IMG/VR virus record: IMGVR_UViG_3300022223_000026
Coordinates: 1 to 23,393 of that record
Reading direction: 5' to 3' (one strand)
Source of the DNA: a virus
Length of the DNA: 23,393 bases
Of the stretch, positions 3,553-20,682 are shown piece after piece; within the stretch, counting starts at the first letter, position 1; the number at the start of each line of letters is the position of its first letter. The translations under genes and the position numbers were made by a program. The notes beneath the pieces were generated by a model. The model was not told where the DNA came from. It saw nothing but the letters and a program-made list of their open reading frames with translations, and ran no database searches.

Positions 3553-3617
3553 GCATATGAAAGCTTGTGCTACTACTACTCATACTAACCCTGATCAACT
3601 TTGAAGGTATAATAAAA

Positions 3618-4802
3618 ATGTCAGAGATAGAAAACATCCTACTTAGAGATCTCTATAAAGATTTACCTGAAGTACCTGTAGTAGAACGACAGGGCTTAGG
3701 TGCTATGACAGGGCGTGGTACTGTAACTACACAGCAAGACACACAGCAGAGAGATATTAGTTCTGCACAGAGTAGTGTAGCTGAGTACATGAAGAAGATA
3801 ATCCAGAAGCAAATACAGGATGGTGCATCTATTTCAGCAGCAGCACAAGACGTACCCTTTGATCCCGCCATAGATAACATGGAAACTCTCAGTGCTAGAG
3901 GTTACGACAGTGATGACGTACTTAGATCTAGTGTAGCTACAGGTGCTGTGTCAGCTACTAAGCAGAAGAACGTCAGGCGTGACGTGATGGAACAAGCTGA
4001 GCGTATGATACAAGAGATGCAACAAGAGCGCACCCCTGTCAGGAAGCAAGAAATACAAGACTATCTTACAGGTGTTGACATTGATAAAGCACAAGGCAAC
4101 CTAGAGGACTCTGTACTAGAAACTATATCGGGGATACTGGGTGTACCTGTGCCACCTAAGGATACAACTACAGAAGATGATAGCGTCACTATTGAAGATG
4201 CACCTGATGCTGACGTTGTGTTGGATAAGCCTGTTGAGATTACTGAAGAAGGTCTTATGTCTCCTAAGACAGTAGCGGAAGAAGATCCACGAGGGCGTGT
4301 AAGACCAAAGGCTAGACCAGAGGTGGAAATAAAGGATAATAAAGGTTTTAATTTTAAAGATACAAGTATAAAATTAGTTTCTGATTTAATGAAAGACTTT
4401 GATCTTACTAAGACACAGGCTGCTGCCCTTGTAGGTAATTTAGCTTGGGAGTCGGATAACTACCGAGGTATGCAAGAGTATGAGCCTGCGGTAAAAGGTA
4501 GTAGAGGGGGTTATGGGTTTGCTCAATGGACAGGCGCAAGAAGAAGAATGTTTGAGGCGTGGTCTAAAGAAAACGAGTTAGACCCAAACAGCTATGAAGC
4601 CAACTATGGGTTTTTAAAATTTGAGCTATCTAGTGCTAATAATGAAATAGGAAACATGGGTGTAAACACTATAAAAAAGTTAAAAGAGACTAAAGATTTA
4701 GATGCCGCAACAAGCATAGTTATGAACGAATATTTAAGACCAGGGATTCCACACGAAGAAAAACGTAGGAAACGTTCCTCGCAGATTTTGGATTTAATTT
4801 AA
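3618..4802 (+). CDS. Virion protein with C-terminal phage tail lysozyme domain
   Basis: Starting at the ATG at 3618 this gives 394 residues. An in-frame GTG at 3567 would add 17 residues with a hydrophobic run, but the ATG has a GAAGG about 10 bases upstream and is preferred. Residues 1-240 are a polar, acidic linker-like region with no recognisable domain. Residues about 243-394 match the Phage_lysozyme2 fold (peptidoglycan hydrolase of tail proteins): a Gly-Asn-Leu-x-Trp-Glu-Ser segment with probable catalytic Glu278, followed by Gly-Tyr-Gly-Phe-Ala-Gln-Trp-Thr-Gly-Ala-Arg at 299-308. The likely role is local wall digestion during DNA entry, comparable to the lytic domain carried by T7 internal protein gp16. 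A role in release cannot be excluded, because no separate endolysin lies in the window. The lysozyme part has lower GC than the rest of the gene. Confidence 0.8.
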   Translation: MSEIENILLRDLYKDLPEVPVVERQGLGAMTGRGTVTTQQDTQQRDISSAQSSVAEYMKKIIQKQIQDGASISAAAQDVPFDPAIDNMETLSARGYDSDDVLRSSVATGAVSATKQKNVRRDVMEQAERMIQEMQQERTPVRKQEIQDYLTGVDIDKAQGNLEDSVLETISGILGVPVPPKDTTTEDDSVTIEDAPDADVVLDKPVEITEEGLMSPKTVAEEDPRGRVRPKARPEVEIKDNKGFNFKDTSIKLVSDLMKDFDLTKTQAAALVGNLAWESDNYRGMQEYEPAVKGSRGGYGFAQWTGARRRMFEAWSKENELDPNSYEANYGFLKFELSSANNEIGNMGVNTIKKLKETKDLDAATSIVMNEYLRPGIPHEEKRRKRSSQILDLI

Positions 4803-4805
4803 CTA

Positions 4806-5249
4806 ATGTTTGGCTTACCCTTAGAACTCATAACGATGCTCTTCTCTACGGTGCTAGGTGGAGTCATGTCTGTCATTGGGCAGAACCAGAAGAACAAGAT
4901 AGAGCAACAGAAGATGATGCTCCAGACTGCAAGCTTCAGGGCAGACCAAGTTAACGAAGCTAGGAATGCTGGCAAGACTGACAAGCACTTCGCATGGACA
5001 CGTAGACTTATAGCATTATCTGCAGTATTTAGCATTATTGTCTTGCCAAAGCTAGTAGCAGTGTGGTATCCTGAGGTTGGCGTTATCGTAGGTTACACTG
5101 AAGCTACAGGTGGTTTCTGGAACTGGCTATTTGGTCCAGCAGAAACAGTGCAGTGGCGTACAGCGCAGGGCTTTGTAATCACACCATTAGATACGCACAT
5201 AGTATCAGCAATCATAGGTCTGTACTTCGGTGCAGGTTTCACTAAGTAG
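4806..5249 (+). CDS. Three-helix membrane protein, probable holin
   Basis: The 147-residue protein has three predicted membrane segments: residues about 5-25, 68-88 and 128-144. A basic Gln/Lys-rich stretch separates the first two, and a Trp-rich turn (Gly-Phe-Trp-Asn-Trp-Leu-Phe-Gly, 103-110) lies between the last two. The Trp-Thr-Arg-Arg motif just before the second helix is what I remember from the three-TM holin family of gene transfer agents and marine phages (PF11351). A holin would form the inner-membrane lesion that ends infection. The gene begins three bases after the lysozyme-domain stop, which supports a lysis or ejection cassette. The family match is from memory; a structural membrane protein is the alternative. 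Confidence 0.6.
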   Translation: MFGLPLELITMLFSTVLGGVMSVIGQNQKNKIEQQKMMLQTASFRADQVNEARNAGKTDKHFAWTRRLIALSAVFSIIVLPKLVAVWYPEVGVIVGYTEATGGFWNWLFGPAETVQWRTAQGFVITPLDTHIVSAIIGLYFGAGFTK

Positions 5250-12289: not shown

Positions 12290-12668
12290 AATGTTTCTTT
12301 AAGTACTCCACTGCATTGTTTAACCCTTCAACTGTGTCACCTAAATGTCCTATCCCTACGTTACATCCATTACAGATCCACCCTCTAAACTTTAAAGTCT
12401 TGTGACAGTGATCTAATATTAGAGCATCTTCCGCACCACAACAGTCACATCTATCTGGCATAGGAGAAGCCACAGCTTTTAACGTATCTCTGGTTTGTCT
12501 CTGTGTCTCCTTGCAACCCTTACAGACTTTAGAGTATGATGGTATGTTATCTTTTTTATAACACTGTATGTGAAAGCCTACTATAGGTTTAACTTCTTTG
12601 CAGACTTTACATTGTTTAGTTTCTTCTGTATCATCATAAGGTAGGGATGAGAACATTTGTAATTGCAT
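12282..12668 (-). CDS. Recombination endonuclease VII family protein with extra N-terminal zinc ribbon
   Basis: The 128-residue protein ends in the endonuclease VII fold: Cys74/Cys77, Leu-Asp-His-Cys-His at 85-89, Cys99-x2-Cys102-Asn103, and an Asp-Thr-Val-Glu-Gly-Leu segment at 111-116. In the T4 enzyme the Asp-His pair and the Asn after the second cysteine pair bind metal and cleave branched DNA, while the four cysteines bind zinc. A second cysteine set (20/23 and 49/52) forms a separate zinc ribbon at the N terminus. The protein probably resolves branched replication products before packaging, or acts as a small HNH-like nickase. The genome therefore carries two junction-cutting nucleases, this one and endonuclease I. 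Confidence 0.88.
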   Translation of the reverse strand: MQLQMFSSLPYDDTEETKQCKVCKEVKPIVGFHIQCYKKDNIPSYSKVCKGCKETQRQTRDTLKAVASPMPDRCDCCGAEDALILDHCHKTLKFRGWICNGCNVGIGHLGDTVEGLNNAVEYLKKHYG

Positions 12669-12856
12669 TATGCACTTTCTGGTACTTGGAAACAGTATGT
12701 GTTAGCTGATGATTCTGGAGTAGGTCTAGTACTCATAAGACGCTCTTCCATTTCGGTAGCTAGTTGATTACAGGACTTAACATCCATAAACAAACCATCA
12801 AAAGATTGAACCTTAATCTTACCTTCAAACATCATTATGAGTACTAGAACATACAT
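12668..12856 (-). CDS. Small protein of unknown function (62 aa)
   Basis: The 62-residue frame begins with a short hydrophobic run, Tyr-Val-Leu-Val-Leu-Ile-Met-Met, and then becomes polar with two cysteines. Its stop overlaps the endonuclease VII start as TAATG, and its start lies one base after the stop of the 39-aa gene, so it is embedded in translationally coupled genes. A GAGG lies about 12 bases upstream of the ATG at 12856. I do not recognise it. Confidence 0.65.
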   Translation of the reverse strand: MYVLVLIMMFEGKIKVQSFDGLFMDVKSCNQLATEMEERLMSTRPTPESSANTYCFQVPESA

Positions 12857-18628: not shown

Positions 18629-18653
18629 TACTATATAACGTCCTTTGTGTCAA
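18625..18653 (-). promoter_or_regulatory. Near-consensus sigma-70 promoter for the SSB-candidate operon part
   Basis: Read on the - strand, TTGACA (18653-18648) is followed by exactly 17 bases and TATAAC (18630-18625), 11 of 12 consensus bases. The -35 lies in the last codons of the polymerase gene and the -10 in the 41-base gap, the largest in this arm. Transcription would start near 18618, about 29 bases before the ATG at 18589, leaving room for the AGAAAGGAT ribosome site. Confidence 0.7.
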
Positions 18654-20682
18654 GCCAATTCGGGCCAATCTTTGCCTCTAATAGTAAAGGCACGTTCATC
18701 TGTATGTCATACGCTTCTTCGATAAGTTTGTCAAGATCTTTATTTAATGTATCTATAGTTGCAAGTACATATTCCTTCTCGTTAGGGTGAACATCTACTA
18801 CCATTGAGTCATGCACACTGTTGACTACACATGACTGTAGCTTCTCTAGTCTAGCCTCTAGCTCAATTAGTACAAGAGGCACAACATCACCAGTAGCAAA
18901 CCCCTGCACTGGGTAGTTCTTTATCATAGTGAAGTGCGTAGGAGAACCATTCTCTCTACGTGATACATCAGGGAAAGCATACTGCCTACCACTGACGTTA
19001 GTGATCTTGTGTAACCGTATAGCCTCATCACCCAGCTTCTTGTGCCACGCAGCTACACCCTGATACTTCTCGTTGAAGTGCTCGTAGTATGCAGCCTCTG
19101 CCTTAGATCTACCATACCCAGTAGCACCAAAGAGAGGAGCGAAGGTGTGTGCCTTAGCATCCTGCCTACCCGTAGGTTGACCTGCATCAGTAATAACCTG
19201 TGCAGTGTATGCGTGTACGTCGAAGCCTGTGTTGATCTCTTCCATAGCTACCTTGTCTTGTGCTAAGAACGCTGCGGTTCTGAACTCAAGCTGGGCAAAG
19301 TCAGCTTCCATAATGTAGCCACCCTTCCAGCGTGACACGAATACTTTCTTAACTGGGAAGGTGTTACCTCGTGGCATGTTCTGCATGTTAGGGTTACGCC
19401 CACTGAACCTGCCTGTTGCAGTTATGTGTTGGGTAAGACCGACATGAAGGTATCCATCAGGCTTAGTATAAGTATGTATGCCATCAACGAAGCTAGAAAG
19501 ATAAGAACTGACAGCGCTAAGACGCTTAAGATCCGCAAGAAATAGTGCAGCACTTTCCATACGATTGTTTTTAGCTGTTGCAATAAGTGCATCTAAGTTG
19601 TCCTTTCCTGTGCTGAAACCGTTAGCACTGACCCACTTCTTGCTAGGTGCAGAGAACCCTAAGCCAGCCATCTCGTTTGTTTCTTTTAGTTGATACCCTC
19701 TAGCGTCACAGTCCTTACACTTGTTAGGTCTAGCGTACTTAGTTCCATCCTTCTTTAGTTTGTATGTCTTGCCTTCTCCTTCACATGTAGGGCAGGTAAA
19801 AGCTTTTGTTTTCAGTATCTTAGTAGAGTTAGCTTGCACTGCATCCTTGAACTCTTGTGTAGTCTTAACGTAGTCAAACAGGTCAGCCCATTCTTTCTTG
19901 TCGTTAACCTTACGGCTAAACAAAACCTGCGAGGCTTGCTCTGGGCTATTTATGTTGATAGGTGTATCACCCATTAGGTTACGGATCTGTTTGTGTAGCC
20001 TGTCTTCTATGTCTGCCTTCTCTTGCTCAAACTCTACTCTAACTTGTTCGAGGGCGGGTTGATCCACCCTGATACCTGACATGTACATTCTTGTGAGAGT
20101 GGTACAGGTTTTGAAGGTAATGTCTCTGATGTTATGGAGGGAGGCGCTTGCAGGATCGGCATATCTTTCTTCTTGCTTGAGGTACAGCCCACGAGTTGCG
20201 CCGAGATCAGACCTAAGATAAAAGCTAAGCTCATTGAGAGGTATTTCATTTGTGTTGTACCCTTCTTTAAAGTATTTCTTTAGTGTGTCATCCTTCTGTA
20301 CTTCCAATTCATAGCGCTGGGCACATGCCTCTAGGCTCAGCGGTTCCTTAACACTGCGTAGTAGTATGTACTCTGCCAGCATAGTGTCGTAGATCTTACC
20401 GTCATACTTAAAGCCACACTCCCACAACCACATCAGGTCATGTTGTGCATTGTGCATGATCAGTAAGGTAGTCATGTCTAACACCTTCTGTATCTCTCTA
20501 CGCCCAGCGCCTGTAGTATCCTTCTGTTCGACGTGATCTAGTGTGACTATGCACACGCTATCCTCTGCGTCAACAGCTTGCATACCTACCTGTACCAGTA
20601 TGTTGCCTGGTTCAAACGGATCTAGATGCATCTTACCATCACGCTTGTTGGTAGTGTTCTCTACATCCAATACTATTTTCAT
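18631..20682 (-). CDS. Family-A DNA polymerase with 3'-5' exonuclease and inserted zinc ribbon
   Basis: The 683-residue enzyme has all landmarks. Exo I Asp6-Val-Glu8, Exo II His81-Asp82 and Exo III Tyr155 to Asp159 form the proofreading site. Polymerase motif A is Asp461-Phe-Ala-Gln-Leu-Glu, motif B runs Arg506 to Lys510 to Phe514, and motif C is His624-Asp625-Ser626. In motif B, Phe514 aligns with E. coli Phe762 and Phe518 with Tyr766. Between exonuclease and palm lies a zinc ribbon, Cys297/Cys300 and Cys322/Cys325, of DnaJ-like type. There is no 5'-3' nuclease domain, as in T7. The start has TAAGGAG upstream. A second frame inside the gene, at 20034-20249, reads as a lipoprotein. Confidence 0.97.
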   Translation of the reverse strand: MKIVLDVENTTNKRDGKMHLDPFEPGNILVQVGMQAVDAEDSVCIVTLDHVEQKDTTGAGRREIQKVLDMTTLLIMHNAQHDLMWLWECGFKYDGKIYDTMLAEYILLRSVKEPLSLEACAQRYELEVQKDDTLKKYFKEGYNTNEIPLNELSFYLRSDLGATRGLYLKQEERYADPASASLHNIRDITFKTCTTLTRMYMSGIRVDQPALEQVRVEFEQEKADIEDRLHKQIRNLMGDTPININSPEQASQVLFSRKVNDKKEWADLFDYVKTTQEFKDAVQANSTKILKTKAFTCPTCEGEGKTYKLKKDGTKYARPNKCKDCDARGYQLKETNEMAGLGFSAPSKKWVSANGFSTGKDNLDALIATAKNNRMESAALFLADLKRLSAVSSYLSSFVDGIHTYTKPDGYLHVGLTQHITATGRFSGRNPNMQNMPRGNTFPVKKVFVSRWKGGYIMEADFAQLEFRTAAFLAQDKVAMEEINTGFDVHAYTAQVITDAGQPTGRQDAKAHTFAPLFGATGYGRSKAEAAYYEHFNEKYQGVAAWHKKLGDEAIRLHKITNVSGRQYAFPDVSRRENGSPTHFTMIKNYPVQGFATGDVVPLVLIELEARLEKLQSCVVNSVHDSMVVDVHPNEKEYVLATIDTLNKDLDKLIEEAYDIQMNVPLLLEAKIGPNWLDTKDVI
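20034..20249 (-). CDS. Candidate hidden lipoprotein (Rz1-like outer spanin) inside the polymerase gene
   Basis: In the +1 frame relative to the polymerase and on the same strand lies an ATG-started frame of 71 codons. It reads as a textbook type II signal peptide: Met-Lys-Tyr start, hydrophobic residues 4-18, lipobox Leu19-Val-Gly-Cys22, then Thr-Ser-Ser-Lys-Lys-Lys. The 50-residue mature part has eight prolines, including two Pro-Pro pairs, and a Cys-Thr-Cys, without any membrane helix. That is the build of Rz1-type outer-membrane spanins, known for living inside other genes. An AGAAGGG lies about 10 bases before the ATG. Codons in this stretch include CTC, GGC and TCC, which look uncommon elsewhere in the arm. 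It may still be a chance frame; no expression evidence is available from sequence. Confidence 0.45.
   Translation of the reverse strand: MKYLSMSLAFILGLISAQLVGCTSSKKKDMPILQAPPSITSETLPSKPVPLSQECTCQVSGWINPPSNKLE

Follow-up and report, generated by a model that had tools for sequence, protein, structure and literature searches.

Lambda Rz1, a small Pro-rich lipoprotein, is encoded within Rz in the +1 frame, and the part rich in Pro is indispensable (PMC5295617, PMC6139136). A survey of 677 phages described embedded, overlapped and separated spanin pairs together with unimolecular spanins (u-spanins); the greatest separation between paired genes was about 1 kb, and pairs lying farther apart could not have been identified (PMC6139136). 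HMO-2011-type phages have been described as dominating in the ocean and as widespread there (PMC9038755), and neither spanins nor holins are mentioned in the publication that reports most of the isolates. The DNA analysed here, a stretch of 23,393 nt referred to below as the window, is assigned to this group and carries a reading frame for a predicted Rz1-like lipoprotein inside a DNA polymerase gene. For an embedded spanin gene this is a location without earlier report in the literature searched, and in none of the open-access papers covered by the search are embedded spanins connected with HMO-2011-type phages or with DNA polymerase genes.

A predicted lipoprotein frame within the polymerase gene

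The host gene (18631..20682, minus strand) encodes a family A DNA polymerase of 683 aa with a 3'-5' exonuclease domain (PF00476, E 6.8e-50); its DNA_pol_A_exo1 match falls slightly below the cut-off, and phrog_17 is matched as well. The enzyme is 72-75% identical to the polymerases of roseophages CRP-603 (75%), CRP-2 and CRP-207 and 58% identical to that of Puniceispirillum phage HMO-2011, and on the strength of these identities the window is regarded as part, 23 kb long, of the genome of a marine phage of HMO-2011 type. The sequence retains both the Exo I motif (DVE) and the Exo III motif YLRSD (20206..20220, minus), a motif known for family A exonucleases; since both are intact, the enzyme does not look sacrificed. 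Residues 292-333 form a DnaJ-type CxxCxGxG zinc-finger-like insert (PF00684, E 0.002, below the cut-off), a feature noted in the HMO-2011 record too.

The nested frame occupies 20034..20249 on the minus strand, stop codon included, in the +1 frame of the polymerase. It opens with the ATG at 20249, at nucleotide offset 433 of the polymerase gene (20682..18631, minus), runs to 20034 and encodes 71 aa: MKYLSMSLAFILGLISAQLVGCTSSKKKDMPILQAPPSITSETLPSKPVPLSQECTCQVSGWINPPSNKLE. A preliminary description of this DNA had placed a lipoprotein frame over the Exo III motif, and both its exact position, on the minus strand and with an ATG start, and the overlap are confirmed, the predicted signal peptide overlying polymerase residues Y155-LRS-D159. 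This Sec/SPII signal peptide (20187..20249, minus; residues 1-21) consists of the n-region MK, the h-region LAFILGLIS and the lipobox residues LVG before the Cys. The predicted lipidation site, Cys22 (codon TGT, 20184..20186, minus), is spelled by polymerase Leu166 (CTG) together with Tyr167. After LVGC comes TSS, and the mature domain (20037..20186, minus) has 50 residues, eight of them Pro, with no hydrophobic segment; the family pattern LPSxPVKPSPECTCQESGWIxxP is kept in the alignment. In relatives the mature part measures about 45-76 residues; it is hydrophilic and expected to be disordered. The lipoprotein plan drawn in the preliminary description thus stands in its h-region, LVGC, TSS and 50-residue Pro-rich tail, and less well in its "basic start", the n-region being weakly basic with a single Lys.

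A Shine-Dalgarno-like sequence, AAAGAAGGG (20260..20268, minus), lies 10 nt 5' of the nested ATG; no selection for such a site was detected beyond the KEG codons of the polymerase, and pairing was no better than under the synonymous null. A promoter scan around the locus gave background levels, a DNA pattern search of the 23,393-nt window returned nothing of use, and Pfam and NCBIfam family searches gave no match for the nested protein.

In its plan the predicted product resembles lambda Rz1: a very small SPII lipoprotein, read in the +1 frame of its host gene, with a flexible Pro-rich mature part that lacks a membrane helix, extra periplasmic Cys residues, and a gene that annotation usually misses. 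Unlike in Rz1, the host gene is a DNA polymerase gene rather than the i-spanin gene Rz, and the i-spanin would be unlinked; the nested protein has neither a penta-proline run nor significant sequence similarity to Rz1, and its gene lies in the replication region, outside any holin-endolysin cluster. Separated spanins, such as T4 PseT.3/PseT.2 and those of B40-8 with genes about 1 kb apart, have subunits encoded apart, as is proposed here; but the candidate partners considered below are encoded in the other transcription arm, at a distance of tens of kb, and the outer gene shares its DNA with an unrelated gene by overprinting. U-spanins (T1 gp11 type; here CRP-345 gp68, CRP-1 gp54 and the proteins of genomes G026 and G035) share the lipobox and apparently serve the same step, and in this group they occur in close relatives without the nested gene. 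In comparison with them, the nested protein has no C-terminal TM domain, possesses extra Cys, is Pro-rich and is about half the size; with no hydrophobic segment after Cys22, it was rejected as a u-spanin itself.

The nested protein has the lipobox Cys, the short helix-free periplasmic domain and the richness in Pro by which outer spanins are recognised in sequence, while its gene is not in, overlapping or beside an i-spanin gene. PHROG searches matched four Rz-like spanin families, weakly (best E 0.0039) and in part compositionally, and a control with the mature part shuffled gave one weak Rz-like match at 0.03. Because linkage fails and homology to known spanins is not significant, the protein is not filed here as a proven outer spanin.

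Lysis genes in genomes with and without the nested frame

All gene families were compared between nine near-complete genomes that carry the nested gene and five that do not. A single family, that of a holin-like protein with three TM segments, was present in 9/9 of the former and 0/5 of the latter, in raw counts that ignore kinship. Its member in the window (147 aa; 4806..5249, plus) has a weak full-length match to GTA_holin_3TM (E 0.87) and belongs to phrog_38283 (function unknown); because the best Pfam match is weak, "holin-like" refers to topology and position. Profile comparison found no similarity between this protein and the holin-like protein of HMO-2011 type. Beside it lies a gene for a peptidoglycan hydrolase (Phage_lysozyme2; 3567..4802, plus; PF18013, E 2.5e-21; start codon uncertain). 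The adjoining hydrolase varies, from Phage_lysozyme2 in the window to Hydrolase_2 in CRP-603 and a LysM protein with a weak GH19-like match in CRP-207; the cassette looks as if the endolysin alone gets exchanged, the holin-like gene staying in place.

Different cassettes are found where the nested gene has been lost. Genomes G026 and G035 encode an M15 endolysin and a u-spanin; in G061, G062, G063 and G058 a different holin-like protein accompanies a GH108 endolysin (PF05838, E 2.4e-30), the cassette of G061 lying near the terminase genes. Among phages outside the clade that carries the nested gene, an M15 endolysin goes with a u-spanin in the sister phages CRP-1 and CRP-345, and HMO-2011 has a lysozyme with the phrog_2524 holin-like protein. 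A swapped cassette is present in each of the three separate loser lineages with data (the L041 group, L298 and the L240/L252 group); one fragment, G059 (L249), departs from the rule, its nested ORF being broken but its 3-TM gene still there. In the nested-positive genomes there was no match to M15, GH108 or T4-type endolysins and no u-spanin, and a u-spanin together with an intact nested gene occurred in 0/29 IMG/VR records, many of them fragments, and in 0/3 isolates carrying the nested gene. The u-spanins, which combine an N-terminal lipobox with a C-terminal TM domain, match NCBIfam spanin2_3 (NF037952) below the cut-off. Those at L096:44790-45131 (minus), L312:6461-6826 (plus) and L306:626-997 (plus) lie beside M15 endolysin genes, and the u-spanin gene of CRP-1, gp54, is annotated merely as a hypothetical protein.

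The preliminary description had advised looking for another spanin in the same genome, and an all-frame scan of the complete genomes of CRP-603 and CRP-2 found no credible lipoprotein besides the nested ORF. A second small lipoprotein family (C-TTITYTASCRxxDxxCQRNQxAQTLxxIGQ...) lies near the genome end in four nested-positive genomes, at L095:48061-48270 (minus; CRP-207, where it is unannotated), L111:1651-1860, L110:13602-13874 and L114:4509-4745, and could be a structural or second envelope protein; its presence counts against the spanin reading of the nested gene. The window also encodes, at 12668-12856 (minus), a protein of 62 aa that begins with a short hydrophobic stretch and contains two Cys; it is possibly a small exported protein, and relatives are encoded at a similar place in CRP-207, G003, G010, G012 and G017.

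As for an inner partner, each of the nine near-complete nested-positive genomes encodes one protein with an N-terminal TM helix and a coiled coil. These proteins fall into two families, A (MDNLKLP...; CRP-603 gp76) and B (GGYNIKGWM...; CRP-207 gp73), and look like inner spanins in their sequences. Since family A occurs also in CRP-345, a u-spanin phage, and a remote relative of family B is found in G061, both are treated as candidate partners only; the CRP-603 protein was rejected as a strict partner of the nested gene, the association not being strict. No gene for an N-terminal-TM coiled-coil protein adjoins the polymerase gene.

Taken together, the nested protein is probably an Rz1-like outer spanin, overprinted on the polymerase and unlinked to any inner-spanin gene. 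The main alternative, judged unlikely, is an outer-membrane lipoprotein with another job, for example a receptor or superinfection block like T5 Llp, made early together with the polymerase. Small phage lipoproteins with receptor- or superinfection-blocking roles exist, and those of the T5 Llp type likewise are small outer-membrane proteins for which early expression is plausible. The location in the replication operon suits such a role, and the evidence that the gene is real fits it equally well. Moreover, as the gene lies on the strand of the replication genes, it would be expected to be expressed early, which speaks against the spanin reading, for spanins act late. Against another job stands the distribution of the gene: its presence tracks the lysis cassette, the 3-TM holin-like gene being the best-tracking family, and lineages that have lost it carry a u-spanin or another endolysin cassette. 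Proteins of the T5 Llp type are not nested in a polymerase and have no reason to follow a lysis cassette, and selection on the nested frame keeps many prolines, as in Rz1.

We know of no precedent for a holin-regulating lipoprotein. A lysis helper of another kind than a spanin, which might for instance regulate the 3-TM holin-like protein, would show the same cassette association and would gain from the i-spanin being only a candidate, but it is very improbable, given that those small lipoproteins with many Pro and a link to lysis that have been described are spanins (PMC6139136).

Selection on the +1 frame and its evolutionary history

The nested ORF is almost certainly a real gene and not a product of chance. 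Relatives were gathered with four polymerase queries and from annotated isolates, and the first three queries plus the isolates make up a set of 147 unique polymerases. A +1 frame was counted as intact if it stayed open over 60 codons or more and had Cys as residue 22; by this measure it is intact in 104 of the 147. By sequence rules, the lipobox L-x-[G/S/A/N]-C at residues 19-22 is present in 104/104 open frames of the clade, and in the same set of 147 no frame inside the clade was open for 60 codons and without Cys22.

The codon signal relevant to the nested ORF is that of the wobble base. The preliminary description had called for a search for reduced synonymous change in aligned polymerases, and such a reduction was found. 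In a codon alignment of 70 non-redundant intact polymerases, the ratio of observed to expected synonymous difference over the ORF was 0.744 (z -8.8; 0 of 20,000 permutations), and all 70-codon windows outside it gave ratios of 0.93-1.12; in the first set, of 54 polymerases, the drop starts and stops at the ORF borders. No drop was seen in 21 non-redundant polymerases with a broken ORF (ratio 0.995) or in 63 polymerases of the sister clade (1.056). The expectation comes from a simple pairwise model with resampling, for which this contrast between intact, broken and sister sequences is the main safeguard. Frame and start are thus kept across divergent relatives while synonymous change in the host gene is reduced, the pattern by which overprinted genes are recognised. 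Loss of the lipobox and absence of constraint had been named in advance as grounds for abandoning the idea; neither was seen in open frames, though the frame is broken in several lineages and the constraint is gone there.

Stop codons are equally telling: in +1 codons 145-204, synonymous resampling of the 70 non-redundant intact relatives predicts 279 stops and none occurs, the next lowest +1-frame window having a ratio of 0.33. Under the null, the probability per sequence of an open 65-codon frame is 0.35%, and of such a frame with Cys22 0.06%.

The selected features are those of a lipoprotein. Hydropathy of the h-region is 1.69 as against 0.81 under the synonymous null, a full lipobox is present in 100% of intact members as against 5.8% under synonymous resampling, and Pro makes up 16.9% of the mature part as against 3.1%; P45, P48, P51, P66, W62, E54 and S60 are conserved far above the synonymous null. 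Polymerase Thr163, the source of the lipobox Leu, is encoded by ACT in 70/70 sequences, compared with a usage of 29.5% elsewhere, and in just 9/63 sister-clade polymerases. The Cys22 codon was downgraded as proof to weak evidence, because the sister clade, which has no ORF, already prefers xTG at Leu166 (TTG or CTG in 53/63), and Cys55 follows for the most part from residues that the polymerase conserves (85% under the null). Fourteen members (L045, L046, L047, L048, L050, L058, L072, L075, L080, L023, L027, L037, L148 and L180) have ACG in place of the usual nested ATG; 14/14 of them have another ATG farther upstream in frame, with no stop between it and the nested frame, compared with an in-frame upstream ATG in 31/89 members keeping the usual start, which suggests start-site turnover within the overlapped gene.

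A chance ORF, with the +1 frame kept open and a lipobox spelled by codon bias and conserved residues of the polymerase, could account for Cys55 and for the xTG codon behind Cys22, yet it is extremely improbable in view of the missing stops, a Pro content five times the null, and a sharp-bordered synonymous constraint that vanishes in loser lineages and in the sister clade; the sole sister polymerase with an open +1 frame, L383, is without the lipoprotein plan. Chance, which the preliminary description had still allowed for, is therefore rejected on three grounds: the dearth of stops, the synonymous constraint and the surplus of Pro. Reduced synonymous variation by itself would fit a functional element in the nucleic acid as well as a coding frame. 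Such an RNA or DNA element (a regulatory structure, packaging or codon-usage signal) is nevertheless scarcely credible as the source of the reduction here, the constraint having the grammar of a +1 protein: stop avoidance, an h-region, Leu at -3, a small residue at -1 and Cys, Pro, and a replacement upstream start. Of the original proposal of an Rz1-like lipoprotein nested in the polymerase, the gene is accordingly strongly supported by constraint, lipobox and Pro content, and the outer-spanin role indirectly, by the tracking of the lysis cassette.

The nested gene owes its origin to overprinting. The polymerase tree is consistent with a single gain at the root of the clade to which HMO-2011, CRP-1 and CRP-345 do not belong, followed by about five losses, in L042, L041/L051, L182/L298, L169-L176, and L039 with the L244-L282 group. 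The starred (supported) branches alone require at least four label changes; because support is SH-aLRT from a quick tree search, the exact number is uncertain.

A proposed course of lysis and its implications

Under the outer-spanin reading, a gene that arose a single time, through overprinting of the exonuclease domain of an HMO-2011-type polymerase, would be translated from the internal start ATG 20249 on the polymerase mRNA. After export, its product would receive its lipid on Cys22 and be delivered to the outer membrane, where it would sit in the inner leaflet with a flexible Pro-rich tail of ~50 residues reaching into the periplasm. The holin and endolysin of the structural-region cassette would first open the inner membrane and wall, and the nested o-spanin may then join an inner-membrane coiled-coil protein encoded elsewhere, by which the outer membrane would be fused or disrupted. 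That this amounts to a new architecture, in which an o-spanin overprinted de novo once in the polymerase acts with a partner encoded tens of kb away and is discarded when the lysis cassette is swapped for one with a u-spanin or another endolysin, is put forward with confidence a little beyond even.

If true, the nested gene would supply the missing outer-membrane lysis step of HMO-2011-type phages, and an outer spanin would not need to sit in or beside the gene of its inner partner. With an o-spanin located away from its partner, the "spanin-less" phages of published surveys would therefore merit a search in all frames of unrelated genes. The locus would also offer a clean case of overprinting, with one gain, several losses and constraint relaxed after loss, all on a highly constrained host enzyme. 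The nested gene would also tie the evolution of a replication gene to that of lysis genes, and it yields a prediction testable in the cultured phages CRP-603, CRP-2 and CRP-207.
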